Positions 672 through 9,492 of a stretch of DNA of 28,006 nucleotides are shown here, in pieces (the first letter of the stretch is position 1; every line of letters starts with the position of its first letter). The notes beneath the pieces are model-generated. The model did not search any database and was not told the DNA's origin. It was given only the letters and a program-made list of their open reading frames with translations. Source of the stretch: a virus; the IMG/VR virus record IMGVR_UViG_3300043429_000482, positions 1 through 28,006 of that record; one strand, written 5' to 3'. A program made the position numbers and the translations under genes.

Positions 672-1457
672 ATGCCTGCAAGGCGACCGGTCAAGGCAGG
701 CCAGCGGTTCGGCCGCTGGACTGCTACTGCGGACGGCGACTACTCGTCAGGTGTCCAGATGGTTGCCTGCAAGTGCGACTGCGGCACTGAGCGGGCGGTT
801 TCGGCTGGCAATCTGCGATCCCGAAAGATCCCTTCGTGCGGATGCATGAGGAGGGACTCAATCGCGGCAAGGTGCCGCAACCCAATCCGCGCGGGCGAGC
901 GATTCGGTCGACTGACGGCAGTCGAGGACGGCCGGTATGACGGACTAGAGAGAGCCAGGGTTCGGTGTGTGTGCGATTGCGGCGAGCCGTGCGACATCCC
1001 GCAGGCGTGCCTTCGCCGAAAGACGACTCTCTCCTGCGGATGCCTGCACCGCGAACGGTCGTCTGAGGCCGCCGCCCGAGACATCGGTAGCAGGGCGAAC
1101 CTGAACAGGCTCTATGAAGGCGCTCGTGGACAGATCTGGATGAGGTCATCGTGGGAGGTGGCTGTCGCCCACAGGCTCGACCGCGACGGCCTCGAGTGGG
1201 AGTACGAGCCGAAGGCGTTCCGTCTGGATGAGCACACGAGGTACACGCCCGACTTCAGGGTCGACCTGGGCACGCTGGGGAGCCTGTGGATCGAAGTAAA
1301 AGGCGAGTTTTTTGGTAGGTCGCGGGAAAAAGTGGCGGCGTTCCGAGCCACTGGCAGACCGCTCTATCTCGTGAGCAAGGATAACTTTAAGCAGTACTCC
1401 GGCATCAGCCCATACATAGCTAATCGGCGTTATCCGCCGAAGGTGCGATTGGTATGA
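672..1457 (+). CDS. Tandem zinc-finger / PD-(D/E)XK nuclease, homing-endonuclease-like
   Basis: 261 residues. Two similar N-terminal repeats (about residues 9-58 and 70-125) each start G(Q/E)RFGR(W/L)TA, then carry a CxCDCG knuckle and end in SCGC, a probable zinc-binding unit of the kind found on phage HNH/AP2 mobile endonucleases. The C-terminal half is a PD-(D/E)XK nuclease: E162 in RSSWE, then YTPDF with D194, then WIEVKG with E208 and K210. That gives the full acid-acid-x-lysine set, so it looks catalytically intact. ATG 672 has a good ribosome site (GAGGGG, 663-668); an in-frame ATG at 588 would overlap the small terminase and lacks such a site. The stop overlaps the large terminase start by 4 bases (ATGA). 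The position between terminase genes is where free-standing homing nucleases often settle; a packaging or recombination nuclease is the alternative. Confidence 0.75.
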   Translation: MPARRPVKAGQRFGRWTATADGDYSSGVQMVACKCDCGTERAVSAGNLRSRKIPSCGCMRRDSIAARCRNPIRAGERFGRLTAVEDGRYDGLERARVRCVCDCGEPCDIPQACLRRKTTLSCGCLHRERSSEAAARDIGSRANLNRLYEGARGQIWMRSSWEVAVAHRLDRDGLEWEYEPKAFRLDEHTRYTPDFRVDLGTLGSLWIEVKGEFFGRSREKVAAFRATGRPLYLVSKDNFKQYSGISPYIANRRYPPKVRLV

Positions 1458-2971
1458 CGCGACAGCCGAGCCTGTTTACGCAGTTCTGCGGAATGCTGCG
1501 GCACTCAAAGGGCGACTTTGCCAACAAGCCATTCGAGCTGATGCCGTGGCAGCAGGACTTCTTTGACAAGCTGCTCTACACGCTGACGCCAGAAGGGTTG
1601 AGACAGTATCGCCGCGCTTTTCTTGCGCTTCCGAGAAAGTCGGGAAAGAGTCAAATGTGCGCGGCTCTTGGCCTTTACTGCCTCTTTATGGACGACGAGC
1701 CTGGCTCAGAGATCGTTGTGGCCGCTGGCGATAGGTCTCAGGCGGGCATCCTGCATACAGCAGCAAAGCATTTGCTCGAGTCATGCCCGAGCTTGGCCCG
1801 GCGAGCAAAGGTGTACCGTAACTCAATCGTCGTCGAGTCGACGAAGTCGACGATGATGACAGTCAGTCGAGAAAGCGCCACCAAGCACGGCCTGAACCCG
1901 TCAGTGGTACTTATTGATGAGTTCCATGTGTTCCCCGATCGCGAGTTGGTCGACGTGCTTGAGACGGGCATGGGTGCCAGAAGCCAGCCCCTTACTATTT
2001 ACATCACAACGGCCGGCACTGACATGAACGGCCCTTGTTACAAAGATTGGCAGCGCGCGCTCAAGGTGCGCGACGGTGTTTTGAAGGACGACACCTTCCT
2101 GCCGTGCATCTACGCGGCAGACCCCGAGGATGACCCTTTCTCGGAGGAGACGTGGAAAAAGGCGAATCCGAATTATGGAATCACCTCGAAGCCCGACTAC
2201 TTCCGCCAGTTCGCCGAGCGGGCCAGAAACTCGCCGACCGACGAGACCGTCTTCCGCACGCTCCATTTGAACCAGTGGCAGAAGTCGGAGACGAAGTGGT
2301 TGCGGCATGGTGCCTGGGACGCGAACAGCGAGCCGCTCCGGCCCACCGCCGGGCGGCCGTGCTGGTGCGGCGTCGACCTCGCGAGCACATTCGACACGAC
2401 GGCGTTCGTGGCGGTGTGGCCGGATGAGGACGGCACCTACGACGTGTTCGCCCACTTCTTCATCCCCGAGGAGAACGCCCACAAGCGCGCCAGGGAGGAC
2501 CGGGTGCCGTATCAGGCGTGGGCCGACGCTGGGTTTGTTACAATGACGGATGGCGACATTACGGACTACGACGCCGTCCGAGACTACATTCTCTCGTTTT
2601 GCGAGAAGAATGCGGTTCGCGGTATTGCAATCGACCGCTGGAATGCGGTGCATCTGACGACGCAACTGGTAGCGGAGGGGATCGACGTTAAGCCTTTCGG
2701 CCAGGGGTTCGCCAGTATGTCAGCCCCCAGCAAGCTGCTCGAAACCTTGGTTGTGGGCAAGAAGCTGAGGCACGGCGGCAACCCGGTTCTCGCCTGGCAG
2801 GCGTCGAATGTTCAGGTGAAGGTCGACGACGCCGGGAACATAAAGCCTACTAAGAAACACTCGCATTCGACTGCCCGCATCGACGGCATCGTGAGCCTGA
2901 TCATGGCCCTCGGCATCTCCAGCAGCGAGTCTCACGGGCCGACCGACGAACCAACCCTCCTGGTGCTCTAG
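1454..2971 (+). CDS. terL: Phage terminase large subunit (ATPase and nuclease)
   Basis: 505 residues, normal for the HK97 gp2-like Terminase_1 family. It is the DNA-packaging motor that docks on the portal and cuts the concatemer. The N-terminal ATPase has Walker A PRKSGKS at 60-66, Walker B VVLIDE at 151-156 with catalytic E156, and the coupling motif ITTAG at 184-188. The C-terminal RNase H-like nuclease begins at about 303 with WCGVDLAS (D308), followed by GIAIDRWNA and a final acidic motif RIDGIVSLIMALG near the end. All key residues are present, so it should be active. It starts with an ATGA overlap with the nuclease gene, suggesting coupled translation. The first ~450 bases have more A/T-ending codons than the rest, as does the 3' part of the nuclease gene, hinting at mosaic origin. 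Confidence 0.95.
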   Translation: MTRQPSLFTQFCGMLRHSKGDFANKPFELMPWQQDFFDKLLYTLTPEGLRQYRRAFLALPRKSGKSQMCAALGLYCLFMDDEPGSEIVVAAGDRSQAGILHTAAKHLLESCPSLARRAKVYRNSIVVESTKSTMMTVSRESATKHGLNPSVVLIDEFHVFPDRELVDVLETGMGARSQPLTIYITTAGTDMNGPCYKDWQRALKVRDGVLKDDTFLPCIYAADPEDDPFSEETWKKANPNYGITSKPDYFRQFAERARNSPTDETVFRTLHLNQWQKSETKWLRHGAWDANSEPLRPTAGRPCWCGVDLASTFDTTAFVAVWPDEDGTYDVFAHFFIPEENAHKRAREDRVPYQAWADAGFVTMTDGDITDYDAVRDYILSFCEKNAVRGIAIDRWNAVHLTTQLVAEGIDVKPFGQGFASMSAPSKLLETLVVGKKLRHGGNPVLAWQASNVQVKVDDAGNIKPTKKHSHSTARIDGIVSLIMALGISSSESHGPTDEPTLLVL

Positions 2972-2972
2972 C

Positions 2973-4616
2973 GTGGACAAGGTTGACGAAGAAGTCTCCG
3001 ACCTGATTGAGCTTCGCGGCAACCTCTCCCGCATTTTCGAGGAGATCGTCAACACCCGCCGCACCGCGTCGGGCGTCACCGTCTCGCCGGAGACGGCCCT
3101 GGAATGCACCTCGGTGCTGGCCTGCGTCCGGGTGCTGTCGGAGTCGATCGCCTCGCTCCCCTTGAACGTCTACCGCCGGCTCCCCGGCGGCGGCAAGGAA
3201 ATCGCCGAGGAGCAGCATCTCCACGAGGTGCTGGCCTACCAGCCGAACTCGTGGATGACGGGTTTCGAGTTCCGCGAGCTGCTGATGAGCTGGCTGCTCC
3301 TCTGGGGCAACGCCTACGCCCACATCAAGAGCGGCCGGCACGGGGCCGTCACAGAGCTGATCCCGCTGCACCCGTCGCGGATGGAGGTCAAGCGGCTGTC
3401 CAACGGCCGGTTGCGGTACTACTACCGCGAGCCGACGACGCCGATCCAGCCGACGCCCGACCCGACCGAGTACCGCCAGGACGAGATCTTTCATTTGCGG
3501 TGGCTCTCGTCGGATGGGGTGACCGGGTTTGTGCCCACGACGCTCTCCCGCGACGCGATCGGGCTGGCGAGGGCGACTGAGCTTCACTCCGGTAGCTACT
3601 TCGGGAACGGTGCCCAGCCTGGCACCTACATCGAGACTGATCAGCCGCACAAGCCCGAGGCCCTCGCCCGGTTCAAGCAGCAGTGGGATGACGCCCACGC
3701 GGGGCCAGACAAGGCGTACAAGACGGTGGTGATGCCATTCGGCTTCCACCGCAAGCAAGTCGAGATCCGTAACGACACCGCCCAGCTCATCGAGACCAGG
3801 AAGTATCAGGTCGAGGAGGTGGCCCGCGCCTATCGCGTACCGCCCCATCTGCTCGGCGACCTGTCGAACGTGCGGCACAGCACCGTCGAGCAGTCGGCCA
3901 TCGACTTCGTCACCTTCTCGCTGTTGCCGTGGTGCAGGCGGTGGGAGATGGCGGCTCGCCGCGATCTGGTCATCGACGACAAACAGTATTTCGTGCAGTT
4001 CGACGTGAACGCGCTGATGGCCGGCGACTACGCCGCGAGGTCGCAGTTCATCCGAGAGATGGCAAACCTGGGCGCCCTCGATGTCGACGAGATCCGCGCC
4101 CAGATCGGCTACAACCCGCTCCCCGACGGCCAGGGCAAGAAGCGGTTCATCCAGGTCAATATGCAACTGCTCGACGCCTTCACGCCGGAGAATCCGACCG
4201 GGCAGAAGGCCGAGCCCGAGGCGGCCCCCGCCCCGCCGGCGAATGTCGATGCGCCGCCTGAGTCGCCGGCCGGCGACGAGCCGGTCGATCCAGGCGCGCG
4301 GCACGTTGCCGGGGCTGAGGTCGTGTTCAAGACCGCCCTGCGGCGGCTGGCGGGCGTCGAGGCCGACGGCATCCTCGAGCGACGCAACAAGCCAGAGAAG
4401 ATCGCCGCCTGGTTCGATCAGGTCGGCAGCCGCATGAAGGACGAACTGCGGGATGCCGCCAAGGCTACCGGACGCGATATCGACGAGTTTGTGAACGGCT
4501 GGATCGCCCGCTCTCGCGAGCTGCTCTTGGACTGCCACCGCAGCGGGCAGAAGTACGAATCGGTCACCGGAGACTGGTGCGACAGGCACCTGACGAACAA
4601 TGCCCCAGCCGCCTGA
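2973..4616 (+). CDS. HK97-family portal protein with C-terminal extension
   Basis: 547 residues. The portal forms the dodecameric ring at one capsid vertex through which DNA passes. Family features include SVLACVRVLSESIASLPL, LLLWGNAYAHI, the RDAIGLARATE helix, VPPHLLGD and NVRHSTVEQSAIDF, followed by a region ending GYNPLPDGQG. The usual family core of about 400 residues ends near residue 400. About 145 more residues follow: a Pro/Ala-rich acidic linker, then a helical domain containing AGAEVVFKTALRRLAGVEADG. Start is GTG, one base after the terminase stop, with no strong ribosome site, so re-initiation or coupling is likely. The last 17 bases overlap the ferritin-like gene. The function of the extension is unknown. 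Confidence 0.93.
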   Translation: MDKVDEEVSDLIELRGNLSRIFEEIVNTRRTASGVTVSPETALECTSVLACVRVLSESIASLPLNVYRRLPGGGKEIAEEQHLHEVLAYQPNSWMTGFEFRELLMSWLLLWGNAYAHIKSGRHGAVTELIPLHPSRMEVKRLSNGRLRYYYREPTTPIQPTPDPTEYRQDEIFHLRWLSSDGVTGFVPTTLSRDAIGLARATELHSGSYFGNGAQPGTYIETDQPHKPEALARFKQQWDDAHAGPDKAYKTVVMPFGFHRKQVEIRNDTAQLIETRKYQVEEVARAYRVPPHLLGDLSNVRHSTVEQSAIDFVTFSLLPWCRRWEMAARRDLVIDDKQYFVQFDVNALMAGDYAARSQFIREMANLGALDVDEIRAQIGYNPLPDGQGKKRFIQVNMQLLDAFTPENPTGQKAEPEAAPAPPANVDAPPESPAGDEPVDPGARHVAGAEVVFKTALRRLAGVEADGILERRNKPEKIAAWFDQVGSRMKDELRDAAKATGRDIDEFVNGWIARSRELLLDCHRSGQKYESVTGDWCDRHLTNNAPAA

Positions 4617-5073
4617 CGGCGTCGTGAACGCCCTCCAGACCGCCGTGCGTCTGCACCTGACGGCGATCGACCACTACCAGAGCCAGGCCGAGCACTTCGG
4701 CCGCTGGGGGTATGGCAAGCTGGCCGCCGCCTTCGCGGAGGACGCCGAGGAGGAGCGGGGCCACCTCAAGATGGCGATGAGCCGCCTCGAGTACTACGAC
4801 GTGGCCCCGGAGATGGCTCATCCGGCCCCCGAGTGGCCCCGGCATGACTTCGAGGGCGTGTTGTCGGCGAATCTGGCGCTCGAAGACGAAGTCGCAGGCG
4901 CCGAACGCGCCGCGATCCTGGTCTGCCGCGCCGCCGGCGACGAGCTTTCCGCACTTGTGTTCGTCGAACTGCTCAAGGGCAGCGAGGCGGCGATCGCTGA
5001 GATCGAGGCAACTCAGCGGGTGATCGATCAGATCGGCCTCGACAACTACCTTGCGGATCAGGTGACGGCATGA
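4600..5073 (+). CDS. Bacterioferritin-like (ferritin-fold) protein with degenerate diiron site
   Basis: 157 residues, the length of bacterioferritin. The pattern runs through the four-helix bundle: LTAIDHYQSQAEHFGRWG for helix A, DAEEERGHLKMA for helix B, LALEDEVAGAERAA for helix C, LLKGSEAAIAEIEATQ for helix D, and the closing QIGLDNYLADQ, very like the E. coli protein's ending. Aligned from memory, bacterioferritin diiron ligands E18, E51, H54, E94, E127 and H130 correspond to H19, E52, H55, E95, Ser and Ala; the heme methionine M52 becomes R53. So three ligands are kept, one is changed to His and the helix-D pair is lost. Normal ferroxidase activity is doubtful. The gene overlaps the portal by 17 bases and the protease by 4, so it is made with the head proteins. 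No encapsulin-type targeting tail is obvious. Ferritin fold is confident; role is unknown. Confidence 0.85.
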   Translation: MPQPPDGVVNALQTAVRLHLTAIDHYQSQAEHFGRWGYGKLAAAFAEDAEEERGHLKMAMSRLEYYDVAPEMAHPAPEWPRHDFEGVLSANLALEDEVAGAERAAILVCRAAGDELSALVFVELLKGSEAAIAEIEATQRVIDQIGLDNYLADQVTA

Positions 5074-6722
5074 GCAGCGAGATCGAGCGGCGTACATTCA
5101 TCTCCGACGCGGCCATCGAGTACCGGGACGCCGGCAACGGCGAGAAAAAGCCGGTGATTTCGGGCTACGCTGCCGTGTTCAACTCCGAATCCCGCGATCT
5201 GGGCGGGTTCGTGGAGACGATTCACCCGAACGCCTTCGACGAGGTGCTCGCCGACGGCCCCGACGTGATCGGCGTGTTCAACCACGACCGCAATCTGCTG
5301 CTCGGCCGCACCGGAAACGGCACGATGCGGCTGACGAAAGACCCGTATGGGCTCCGTTACGAGATCTCGCCGAACGAAAACACGTCCATCGGCCGCGACG
5401 TGATCGAGTGGGTGAAGGATCGGACGGTGGTCGGCTCCAGTTTCGCCTTCGCGATCAAGCGAAATGGTGGCGATGCGTGGTCGACGGACGCGAAACGGGG
5501 CATTCGGCGACGCGAAGTGCGTTCCATCGGGCTGCTCGAGGACGTGGGGCCGGTCGTTCGGCCCGCGTATGACTCGTCGAGCGTCGTCGTGAGCCGCCGA
5601 GCGATCGAAATGGCCCTCGGGGAGTCGTTCCGGCCCGTCCAGACGATGGCAAACGCCGCCAAAAGGGGCCTGAAGCTCGCGCAGAAGCACGAGGAGATCG
5701 ATTCGAGGCTCCTCTGCATCGCAGAACGGGTCGCAAACCGCGAAATCGTGTCGGTTGAGGAGGTTTCCTACCTCTCCGGCGTGTACGAGCGGTGCCTGGC
5801 GGCCAAGGAGACCGGCTGGTCGGGCACTCCGGCGTGGATCGAGTGGCAACTGGCCGGCGGCGACACGGGTCAGAAGTGGGTTTCCAGGCGATCGGAGGCT
5901 CAGAGCGAGCCGGCACCCGTCGAAATCCCGTCTGAAGAGCGTGCGGAGCCGAAAATCGACCTGACGCCGACCGCGGGCATGGCCGCCGCCGCCAAGCGGG
6001 GCCTCGCGCTCCACGAAGCGGGCCGATCGGGCGACGGACTGAAGCCTGAGACCGTCGCCAGGGCCAATAAGATCGCCGCGCGGGAGGATCTGACCGAAGA
6101 TCACGTCCGCGAGATGCGGGCCTGGTTCCGCCGGCACAAGGTCGACAAGAAGGCCGGCTGGAGCAAGCGGGGCGAGGAGACACCGGGGTACACGGCGTGG
6201 ATGCTCTGGGGCGGCGACCCGGCCTGGCGGTGGAGCGAGATGAAGGTCGCCCAGATGGAGCGACGCGACATCGACGAGGACGGCGTCGAAGGCGAGTATG
6301 GCGGTGTCCTGTCGCCGGCGAACCTCGCGCTCGCCGAATCCTACGAGGGCATCGCCGAAGAATACGGCCCGTGGAGCCAGGATGACGCCCACTACATGAC
6401 CGACAACCCGTTCGCCTCCCGCGGGGTGAAGTGCAGCAATTGCATCTTCTTCGAGTCGGAGGAGGGCCGGTGCTACATCGTCCAAGGCGAGATCGCGGCG
6501 GGTGCCGTGTGCAAGCTTTGGATCATCCCCGAGGATCGCATGAGCCAAGAGCCAGAAGCGGAGCGTCAGGCTCCTGTTGTCGAGGCGGCGCCTGAAGTGA
6601 CGGAGCCGGCTGCTGCCGAAGTCTCTCGCGAGGAGCAGGAGGCGATCGACATCGCGGTCAAGCTCGCCGACCTGAAGGCGACAATCCTGCGGACTAAGTT
6701 GCACGGCTCTTCGCAGGGCTGA
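5070..6722 (+). CDS. Prohead protease fused to duplicated repeat and four-Cys (HiPIP-like) domain
   Basis: 550 residues, far longer than the usual ~200 for HK97 gp4-type proteases. Residues 1-185 are the serine protease: ISGYAAVFN, FVETIHPNAFDE, catalytic-type H72 in FNHDRNLLLGRT, and S123/S124 in VVGSSFAF, ending GPVVRPAYDSSSVVVSRR. It should trim the capsid protein during head maturation. Two copies of a ~90-residue module follow (193-277, 304-395), each AAKRGL...GW...W...GGD...W. Next comes C455-x2-C458-x9-C468-x12-C481-x2-W in KCSNCIFF...GAVCKLW, spaced like a HiPIP [4Fe-4S] site. The tail is a charged Ala/Glu helix, possibly scaffold-like since no separate scaffold gene is seen. The start overlaps the ferritin-like gene by 4 bases. 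Protease call is firm; iron-sulfur binding is inferred from spacing. Confidence 0.88.
   Translation: MSSEIERRTFISDAAIEYRDAGNGEKKPVISGYAAVFNSESRDLGGFVETIHPNAFDEVLADGPDVIGVFNHDRNLLLGRTGNGTMRLTKDPYGLRYEISPNENTSIGRDVIEWVKDRTVVGSSFAFAIKRNGGDAWSTDAKRGIRRREVRSIGLLEDVGPVVRPAYDSSSVVVSRRAIEMALGESFRPVQTMANAAKRGLKLAQKHEEIDSRLLCIAERVANREIVSVEEVSYLSGVYERCLAAKETGWSGTPAWIEWQLAGGDTGQKWVSRRSEAQSEPAPVEIPSEERAEPKIDLTPTAGMAAAAKRGLALHEAGRSGDGLKPETVARANKIAAREDLTEDHVREMRAWFRRHKVDKKAGWSKRGEETPGYTAWMLWGGDPAWRWSEMKVAQMERRDIDEDGVEGEYGGVLSPANLALAESYEGIAEEYGPWSQDDAHYMTDNPFASRGVKCSNCIFFESEEGRCYIVQGEIAAGAVCKLWIIPEDRMSQEPEAERQAPVVEAAPEVTEPAAAEVSREEQEAIDIAVKLADLKATILRTKLHGSSQG
5646..6254 (+). repeat. Two protein-level copies of a ~90-residue module in the prohead protease
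   Basis: Residues 193-277 and 304-395 of the protease align: both start M-A-x-A-A-K-R-G-L, have a helix with ANREIVSVEEV / AAREDLTEDHV, then GWSGTPAWIEWQLAGGD / GYTAWMLWGGDPAWRW. Copies are diverged in DNA, so the duplication is old. I recall single copies of this module in other phage head proteins; its function is unknown to me. Confidence 0.75.
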
Positions 6723-6871
6723 TAGGCTACATAGGTAGACATTGCTCCGCGACGGATGTCGCGGAGGGCAGTGCGAGCGACTTGAGGACTCAAGCACGCG
6801 GCGCGCTAGCGGGATCACCCGCCGGCCGCCGCATGTGCGTTTGGCCGGCTCAACCAGGAGCAAGGCCAAAC
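6723..6871 (+). promoter_or_regulatory. Structured leader before the major capsid gene
   Basis: The largest gap in the head operon (149 bases) contains a chain of inverted repeats. These are CTCCGCGAC-GGAT-GTCGCGGAG (6745-6766, 9 bp); CTTGA-GGAC-TCAAG (6781-6794, 5 bp); GCGGG-ATCA-CCCGC (6809-6822, 5 bp); and GCCGGCC (6821-6827) with GGCCGGC (6843-6849, 7 bp, 15-base loop), which would compete with the third. The ribosome site AGGAG at 6856-6860 follows unpaired. None is followed by a T-run, so they are not standard terminators. Plausible roles are RNA processing or stabilisation to raise capsid protein output. No clear promoter is visible. Confidence 0.6.
6745..6766 (+). other. Perfect 9-bp hairpin with 4-base loop
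   Basis: Arms 6745-6753 and 6758-6766 are exact reverse complements around the loop GGAT. It lies just after the protease stop. The sequence after it is GGCAGTGCG, with no T-run, so it is better read as a stable RNA structure than a rho-independent terminator. Confidence 0.7.
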
Positions 6872-8221
6872 ATGGCGTCGAACCTCAAGCGTCTTCAGGA
6901 GCGTGCTGCGGCTGTCGCGGCTCGCATGACCGAACTCTCCGGCATCGAGGATCGGTCTGCGGAGCAGACCAAGGAACTCATCTCCCTCGGCGTGCAGGCC
7001 GACGAGCTGAAGACGAGCCTCGACTTCGAGGAGCGGATCGCGGCCAAGGAGGCCGAGCTGCGTGCTGTGGTCGAGAAGGCCGCCCCGGCTCCCGCCCCGG
7101 TCGCCGAGGTCGCCAAGGTCGAGGAGAAGAAGGTCGAGATCCGCTCGATCCAGCCCCATCACACCAGCCTGCGGGCGTTCAACGATGGCCCCGAGGCCGT
7201 CGAGAGCGCGTACCGCTGCGGCCGGTGGCTTCGGGCGCACATCTTCAAGAACGCCGACGACCTCCGGTGGTGCAAGGATCACGGCGTCGAGAATCGGGCG
7301 CTGGGCGAGAGCAGCAACGCTGCTGGCGGCGCTCTGGTTCCCGAGGAGTTCGCGGCCCGAGTGATCCGGCTCGTGGAGAACTACGGCACCTTCGCGGCGA
7401 GCAATGTCGAGAAGGTGACGATGACCCGCGACACGATGATCATCCCGAAGCGTGTCACCGGCACGACCGCCTACTTCGTCGGTGAAGGCACCGCGGTGAG
7501 CGAGAGCGAGCCGACCTACGCGAACGTCCAGCTCATCGCGAAAAAGCTGGCCTGCGGCACGAGGCTCAGTTCGGAGGTGGTGGAGGATGCTCTCGTGAGC
7601 ATCGCCGACGCAGTCGCCGTCGAGTTCAGCACTTCGCTGGCCCTCAAGCAGGACATGTGCGGCTGGCTCGGTGACGGCACGTCGACCTACGGCGGCATCT
7701 ACGGCGTGGTGCCGAAGGTCAACGATGGCACTCACGCTGCCAGCGTTCTGACTGCTGCCTCCGGCGGCACGGGCTTCGAGTCCCTGACCGTCACCGACTT
7801 CGTGAAGGCGATCGGCAAGATGCCGCTCTACGCCCGCCAGGGTGCTGCGTGGTACATCTCGCCGGCCGGCTTCGCCGCGTCGATGGCCCGCCTCCGCTAC
7901 GCGGCCGGCGGTAACACCGTCGAGCAGGTCGGTGGCGGTGTGACCGAGCAGTTCATGGGCTACCCCGTGAACCTCGTCCACGTCATGGACGGCACGCTCG
8001 GCGCCGACCCCGGCAAGGTCAAGGTGCTCTTCGCGAACCTCGGCCTGTCGAGCATCTACGCCCGGCGTCGGGACTTCAGCGTGCGGATGTACGACCAAGT
8101 GTACGCCACGACCGACCAGCTCCTGCTCCAGGGGACGATGCGGTTCGACGTGGTTCACCACTCGCTGGGTGACAACACGACCGCTGGTCCGGTGGTCGCC
8201 CTCAAGACCGCGGCGTCGTGA
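6872..8221 (+). CDS. HK97-fold major capsid protein with N-terminal delta domain
   Basis: 449 residues. It builds the icosahedral shell. Residues 1-90 form a charged coiled coil (LKRLQERAAAVAARMTEL...) ending in an Ala/Pro-rich linker, like the HK97 delta domain that acts as scaffold and is removed by the protease. The shell domain follows: SSNAAGGALVPEEFAARVI (about 146-164), TTAYFVGEGTAVSESEPTY, GDGTSTYGGIYG, WYISPAGFAASMARL, MGYPVNLVHVM and YDQVYATTDQLLLQGTMRFD. Cleavage probably falls between about residues 90 and 143. ATG 6872 was chosen for AGGAG 11 bases upstream and because the earlier in-frame part (from 6782) is unlike the family and lies in the structured leader. It is the target of the upstream protease. 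Confidence 0.93.
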   Translation: MASNLKRLQERAAAVAARMTELSGIEDRSAEQTKELISLGVQADELKTSLDFEERIAAKEAELRAVVEKAAPAPAPVAEVAKVEEKKVEIRSIQPHHTSLRAFNDGPEAVESAYRCGRWLRAHIFKNADDLRWCKDHGVENRALGESSNAAGGALVPEEFAARVIRLVENYGTFAASNVEKVTMTRDTMIIPKRVTGTTAYFVGEGTAVSESEPTYANVQLIAKKLACGTRLSSEVVEDALVSIADAVAVEFSTSLALKQDMCGWLGDGTSTYGGIYGVVPKVNDGTHAASVLTAASGGTGFESLTVTDFVKAIGKMPLYARQGAAWYISPAGFAASMARLRYAAGGNTVEQVGGGVTEQFMGYPVNLVHVMDGTLGADPGKVKVLFANLGLSSIYARRRDFSVRMYDQVYATTDQLLLQGTMRFDVVHHSLGDNTTAGPVVALKTAAS

Positions 8222-8763: not shown

Positions 8764-9492
8764 GTGCTACTGCGTATCGGTAACGTCGAAGCTGAAATCC
8801 GGGTCGCGGCGGTGATGAGCACCCCGCGCCTGGGTTTCACCGACAACTTCTTCTGCGTCTCGTCGGCCCTGGCCCCTCACGGCATCAGTCCCATCAAGGT
8901 GACGGGTGCCTTCTGGGGCCAGTGCCTTCAGCGAGCGATGGAACAGGTCGTCGACTCGAGCGACGTGATCCTGACCATCGACTACGACACGGTCTTCAGC
9001 TCGAAGACGGTCGAGGCGCTCCTGGCCCTGCTTATGCACTCAGGCTACGACGCCATCGCGCCGCTCCAGACCAAGCGGGAGTCGAACGCTGTGATGTTCG
9101 CCCTGGCCGGCGTGACGCCCGACGAGAAGACGACGGTCGACGGCGACTTCTTCTCCAAGGTCGTCCAGCCTGTGGAGACGGCCCACTTCGGCCTGACGTT
9201 CCTGCGAACGTCGGCCCTCAAGAAAATGAAGAAGCCCTGGTTCGTCGCGAGGGCGAACGACGAGGGGACATGGACGGGGGGGCATACCGACGAGGACATC
9301 GGCTTCTGGAAGGGCTGGGCCGCCGTCGGGAACACGCTGGGGATCGCCACGCACATCAGCGTCGGCCACGCCGAACTGATGGTGACATGGCCCTCCCGCA
9401 AGGCGGCGGATGGCCGCGTGCAGCAGCACACGACCGAGTACTGGACGAACGGGCAGAAGGCTCCCGAGGACGCCTGGGGGCAAGTGTCGTGA
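8764..9492 (+). CDS. GT-A fold glycosyltransferase (GT2-like)
   Basis: 242 residues. It would transfer a sugar from a nucleotide sugar to an acceptor, here perhaps a virion protein. Seen: an N-terminal beta-alpha region, VILTIDYDTVFSSKTVEALL with the DxD metal/nucleotide motif D73-Y-D75, APLQTKRES, HFGLTFLRTSALKKM, then GGHTDEDIGFWKGW and ISVGHAELMVTWP, matching the late acidic (ED) and His motifs of such enzymes. The GTG start is preceded by AAGGAG with 6 bases spacing, within a hairpin. It sits between decoration and connector genes and overlaps the next start by 4 bases (GTGA). Virion glycosylation is the likely role given position, but the acceptor cannot be told from sequence. Confidence 0.78.
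   Translation: MLLRIGNVEAEIRVAAVMSTPRLGFTDNFFCVSSALAPHGISPIKVTGAFWGQCLQRAMEQVVDSSDVILTIDYDTVFSSKTVEALLALLMHSGYDAIAPLQTKRESNAVMFALAGVTPDEKTTVDGDFFSKVVQPVETAHFGLTFLRTSALKKMKKPWFVARANDEGTWTGGHTDEDIGFWKGWAAVGNTLGIATHISVGHAELMVTWPSRKAADGRVQQHTTEYWTNGQKAPEDAWGQVS

Follow-up and report, generated by a model that had tools for sequence, protein, structure and literature searches.

A phage family of bacterioferritin-fold proteins with a remodelled metal site, encoded between portal and prohead protease genes and elsewhere

Viral ferritins and the window locus

Ferritin-superfamily genes of phages have usually been recorded singly, as auxiliary genes. A viral bfr gene is reported once in the open-access literature that we found: a putative Bathyarchaeia virus carries one as an auxiliary metabolic gene that is derived from its (Thermoproteota) host, is under purifying selection and specifies an Fe2+-oxidising protein (PMC10904782). 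The family described here is likewise a virus-carried gene of bacterioferritin (Bfr) type under purifying selection. Judged by the published description, it differs in that no close cellular source was found for it, in its remodelled site and in its location, which is mostly a head operon. Searching the same literature for this family, or for the gene order portal-ferritin-protease, turned up no published report.

Encapsulins with ferritin-like cargo (e.g. EncFtn; PMC8346489) provide the other obvious comparison: there, too, a ferritin-superfamily protein adjoins the gene for an HK97-fold shell, and an earlier note on this DNA had proposed a viral parallel. In contrast with encapsulins, whose shell gene lies outside any phage morphogenesis module, the shell gene here is flanked by the terminase, portal and protease genes with which it makes up a full phage head module. 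The ferritin is a Bfr-type five-helix protein with no conserved N- or C-terminal extension that might serve as a cargo-loading peptide; most family members end ...NYLANQV, where Bfr itself ends. The absent extension and the complete head module argue against an encapsulin-like cargo, and the parallel is further weakened by loss and swapping of the gene and by its occurrence outside head operons, as described below.

The window (the whole 28,006-nucleotide stretch of viral DNA that was analysed) has the ferritin gene where the earlier note placed it, between the portal and prohead protease genes and overlapping both: the end of the portal gene by 17 nt and the protease ATG by 4 nt (ATGA). The major capsid gene is next after the protease (Table 1); its start codon is uncertain, TTG 6782 being the listed one, with an in-frame ATG at MASNLKR ~90 nt downstream. 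The ferritin ORF is a real gene, since it is conserved in more than 80 viral contigs of our scan and is under purifying selection.

Table 1. Head-module genes of the window
Feature	Coordinates	Strand	Basis
Terminase large subunit, upstream of the portal-ferritin-protease-capsid block	1454..2971	+	
Phage portal protein	2973..4616	+	PF04860, 9e-94
Bacterioferritin-fold protein, 157 aa, remodelled metal site	4600..5073	+	ATG to TGA ORF
Prohead (head maturation) protease	5070..6722	+	Peptidase_S78, 1e-35
HK97-type major capsid protein	6782..8221	+	PF05065, 2e-27

Several other features of the window deserve mention. An HNH/endonuclease-like ORF (588-1457; phrog_374, 1e-25) separates the small and large terminase subunit genes; in the relatives that were compared these genes are adjacent and nothing matches the ORF, which therefore looks like a homing-endonuclease insertion. 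A glycosyltransferase-like gene (8764-9492; PF13632, below cut-off) lies in the head operon 3' of the capsid gene and is kept in those relatives long enough to show that region. Another metagenome record, L125, shares 427 aa of portal with the window at 100% identity and stops before the ferritin; it is probably the same virus, sampled twice. The closest cultured phages among the matches listed are distant (~22-27% identity in the capsid, 41-43% in the terminase), and no host was inferred.

Fold and metal site

The assignment of the ORF to the ferritins is far above chance. It matches Pfam Ferritin (PF00210) at 3.3e-14 and 53.4 bits, against a cut-off of 24.5, and the bacterioferritin model TIGR00754 at 1.8e-14 and 54 bits, short of the equivalog cut-off of 125.55; phmmer aligns residues 9-156 with solved bacterioferritins without gaps (2.5e-11). 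An AlphaFold2 model built from 27 relatives (pLDDT 95.9, pTM 0.89) has its helices in Bfr order: A (8-35), B (39-65), C (84-111), D (115-145) and E (147-152). VIA-align superposes it on Pseudomonas aeruginosa BfrB with Z 24.5 and an rmsd of 1.0 Å over 155 residues, and on Escherichia coli Bfr with Z about 24; Bfr superpositions overall lie at 1.0-1.1 Å. The full-length ferritin fold that had been proposed from the sequence is thus upheld, in the form of a predicted five-helix Bfr subunit. Dps was considered and rejected: helix E is present and the BC helix absent in the model, and the best solved matches are of Bfr/Ftn type.

Dps- and ferritin-like proteins of other phages, as collected in BFVD, share with the window protein a ferritin fold and an origin in tailed-phage genomes. 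They are nevertheless different, at ~7-21% identity and TM-scores mostly of 0.6-0.85, and many of them are Dps-type or fused, whereas the window's is a free-standing Bfr type. Also in BFVD, the ferritin fold is matched, with probability 1.00 but a TM-score of only 0.5-0.7, by several predicted proteins of uncultured Caudovirales that bear the name 'Prohead protease' (333-763 aa) or are long proteins called 'Dps', a hint that the head protease of other phages may carry a fused Dps-like domain. The best PHROG match to the window ferritin has an E-value of only 0.084, so PHROG does not cover the family. Phage-collection matches to P0001 at 22-27% are, where annotated, ordinary Bfrs by name, and some of them are possibly host carry-over.

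Residue numbers in the window protein are those of E. coli Bfr plus one. Alignment to cellular Bfrs confirms what the earlier note had read of the di-iron ligands: E51, H54 and E94 are kept (as E52, H55 and E95), E18 is replaced by H19, and the helix-D pair E127 and H130 is lost to S128 and A131; the heme ligand M52 has likewise become R53. These replacements hold throughout the family. Among 74 distinct viral sequences H19, Y26, W36, E52, H55, R81, H82, D83, E102 and D114 are 100% invariant, position 95 is Glu in 49 and Asp in 25, residue 128 is Ser in all 73 sequences that cover it, and the position of H130 is Ser, Ala or Gly and never His. Where the heme Met would be, 68 of the 74 sequences have Arg, as does the window protein, and the others have F/A/L/Q. 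The 37 distinct cellular Bfrs that were aligned alongside have E18, E51, H54, E94 and H130 at 94%, E127 at 89% and M52 at 78%. The viral family therefore has neither the six-ligand di-iron ferroxidase set nor, at the dimer interface, the conserved heme ligand Met52.

In sequence, every member has lost the ferroxidase centre on its helix-D side, and four polar core positions are fixed, one of them now His. From the fixed H19, E52, H55 and E95 together with the lost helix-D ligands we infer a single-metal site: the di-iron centre has probably been rebuilt into a one-metal 2-His/2-carboxylate site, although zinc held there for structural reasons would fit the same residue set just as well. Because these four polar residues of the core do not vary, a chemical role is favoured over the earlier suggestion that the protein might be only a structural bundle.

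In other respects the family follows bacterioferritin closely. Besides the whole-length fold with helix E and the gapless alignment, it keeps Y25, W35-G36, E51, H54, R61, D113 and E135 (E. coli numbering). It departs from E. coli Bfr and BfrB at E18 (His), E127 (Ser), H130 (Ser/Ala/Gly) and M52 (mostly Arg), and also at N23 (Glu), G80-E81 (Arg-His) and D34 (Arg), and it forms a phage-only clade. Despite the same fold it is not classed as bacterioferritin, because it falls short of the TIGR00754 equivalog score and lacks the full di-iron set and the heme ligand. The phage-specific invariant residues H32, R35, Y38, R81, H82 and D83 are placed at the AB-turn and the start of helix C and would, from the topology, cluster on one face. 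In BfrB this face includes E81 and E85, which together with L68 belong to the surface used by the ferredoxin Bfd for docking, in keeping with the titles of PDB mutant entries; at that surface the viral family has an invariant R-H-D instead. The former heme site was also considered as a ligand pocket, but a conserved one is unsupported, since most of the positions that presumably line it (19, 22, 26, 45, 49 and 53 in E. coli numbering) are variable.

Contexts, exchange and loss of the gene

Scans of viral contigs for the ferritin family gave 34 matches and then the best 80 of 223 matching stretches. In a quick tree with cellular Bfrs, whose deep placement is not secure, the phage ferritins group together as a single clade, set well apart by a long stem (100% SH-aLRT). 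Family patterns run against 84,980 species genomes found no close cellular relative, the only two matches being Bfrs of the ordinary kind with 23-26% identity; rare prophages could escape such a scan because the patterns match only part of the family. Values of dN/dS lie between 0.05 and 0.28 in 17 ferritin pairs spanning all three of the contexts described next, and therefore indicate continued purifying selection in each.

The same gene was looked for between portal and protease in other phages, and it is there: 73 of 89 loci have the order portal-ferritin-protease with overlapping or abutting genes (one of them at a contig edge). These are counts of the matches listed, not frequencies in nature, and among those loci the head operon is the commonest insertion site of phage ferritin. 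At ten loci the gene lies within a primase/UvrD-helicase cluster and at six beside a recombinase/integrase-like gene, with neighbours usually on the opposite strand. One contig of the integrase type (L211) has a lambda-family portal, a GpA-type terminase and a Phage_capsid_4 capsid, a head that by these profiles is not homologous to the window's. In two records of the replication type (G003 and G005) the capsid has 43-47% identity to that of the window, and the sole ferritin gene is ~45-52 kb away. Because it also occurs in replication and integrase contexts, and with a lambda-type head, the ferritin is not confined to a single kind of head or operon.

Two side observations belong to these phages. 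CsrA-like regulator genes lie near the ferritin in integrase-type phages (L081:4921-5151 and L086:4862-5080, both on the minus strand), the former recognised by PF02599 at 4e-13 and the latter by eye. In the related phage G005 a 2389-aa open frame (L043:3116-10282) has among its matches the portal of the window (1e-101) and a portion of its protease (1e-23). The portal of this phage thus forms part of one very large protein; another protease match follows downstream, and no ferritin separates the two.

At the head operon the gene is exchanged in place. Pairs of phages with portals 90-97% identical have ferritins only 51-56% identical: L069 and L122 (portals 95%, ferritins 52%), L009 and L098 (97% and 54%), L050 and L097 (95% and 56%). 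Whereas the flanks of such swapped genes are mostly 80-97% identical, nucleotide identity falls to ~50-65% within the ferritin ORF itself; in the protease it is back at about 76-97%. The simplest reading of these alignments is whole-gene replacement between two old ferritin lineages at one locus.

The gene is also lost. A portal-profile scan listed 80 loci, 43 with ferritin, 34 without and three at a contig edge, so that the portal directly abuts the protease in 34 of 77 informative close portal relatives; the ferritin-less ones have portals 65-84% identical. An essential head protein would be present in all members with this portal and protease. Ten ferritin-less records (nine of 18-70 kb, one of 13 kb), which may be incomplete, contain no ferritin elsewhere in the record. 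The portal tree requires at least five gain or loss changes of ferritin presence, and two loci retain deletion scars. The L113 portal terminates in ...STDQIGLDNYLVNKVQE, left over from the C-terminus of a ferritin (in longer form ...CEKHLAAESTDQIGLDNYLVNKVQE, of which the final part is ferritin-derived). The L134 protease opens with MPQPDN, which is how the ferritin starts, while L083, 95-96% identical to it in the DNA of both flanks, has the ferritin gene intact. The portal and protease frames run on through the scars in both L113 and L134. The ferritin-less relatives, together with these scars, strongly indicate that such heads can be built in the absence of ferritin. The earlier idea that the protein is an integral part of head assembly is not supported, in view of its deletion in close relatives, its swapping and its presence outside head operons.

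Interpretation and significance

The explanation that we prefer, with confidence that is no better than middling, is an accessory, dispensable and horizontally exchanged phage ferritin, descended from bacterioferritin, with a one-metal site and acting in the infected cell. Since close relatives swap or delete the gene, it is optional and not a required part of the head; it is also transferable, under selection and not tied to one module, as an auxiliary metabolic or moron gene would be. H19, E52, H55 and E/D95 would bind a single metal ion, most likely iron but possibly zinc or manganese, in place of a di-iron ferroxidase centre; the protein would dimerise or form a heme-free cage like that of Bfr, and may deal with metal or redox stress while the phage infects the cell or resides in it as a lysogen. 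In the window phage it would be made late, in step with portal and protease through translational coupling, because its gene sits in the head operon and not because head assembly needs it. Two considerations count against the accessory reading: the gene sits between portal and protease far more often than anywhere else, a preference that a pure hitch-hiker would not have to show, and an optional virion protein could likewise be dispensable and swapped. A related possibility, which we hold tentatively, is a ferritin class peculiar to phages, whose di-iron centre became a single-metal 2-His/2-carboxylate site and whose Bfd-docking face became an invariant R-H-D patch, the protein serving as an exchangeable weapon or shield in a conflict over iron or redox state and often made in step with head assembly.

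The strongest of the rivals, in our estimate rather unlikely, makes the protein a virion component, packaged in or attached to the HK97-type capsid as optional cargo or decoration with a part in DNA protection or metal carriage. Phages commonly have virion proteins that are optional and swapped, and the prevailing gene order, with the late co-translation to be expected from the overlaps, would suit one; the frequent loss of the gene, the lack of a conserved terminal targeting extension and the membership of the same family in primase/helicase clusters and beside integrase genes, the latter with a non-homologous head, all speak against it. Co-assembly with host bacterioferritin as a heme-less, ferroxidase-deficient subunit, which would block iron storage or free stored iron, is improbable. 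The close superposition along the whole Bfr length, the kept helix E and GxxNYL end and the R-H-D at the BfrB Bfd surface speak for it, and hetero-oligomeric Bfrs of unlike subunits are known as solved structures (9iig and 9h1u, by title), but the positions of N23, F26, D34 and R117 (E. coli numbering) differ from cellular Bfr. More improbable still, in our judgement, is a counter-defence or superinfection-exclusion gene on a ferritin scaffold: patchy presence, deletion, allele swapping in place and an integrase-proximal site are the usual signature of such accessory genes, yet this proposal leaves the conserved metal-like core unexplained, and no PADLOC model, from a library of defence rather than counter-defence systems, matches the window ferritin. 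Least probable is a metal-free helical bundle, purely structural or scaffolding in head assembly. The loss of three of six di-iron ligands, a heme pocket that is now polar and the place of the gene in the head operon agree with it; in contrast, four polar core ligand positions are kept in 74 of 74 sequences (95 as E/D), unlike a relaxed hydrophobic core, head assembly proceeds without the gene in close relatives, and the gene has other contexts.

With one locus at which the ferritin is present, swapped or deleted, and with unlinked homologues in other types of phage, the family constitutes a natural experiment that separates being near head genes from being needed for heads. It also defines a fixed, testable set of residues for a new putative metal site on the bacterioferritin scaffold.
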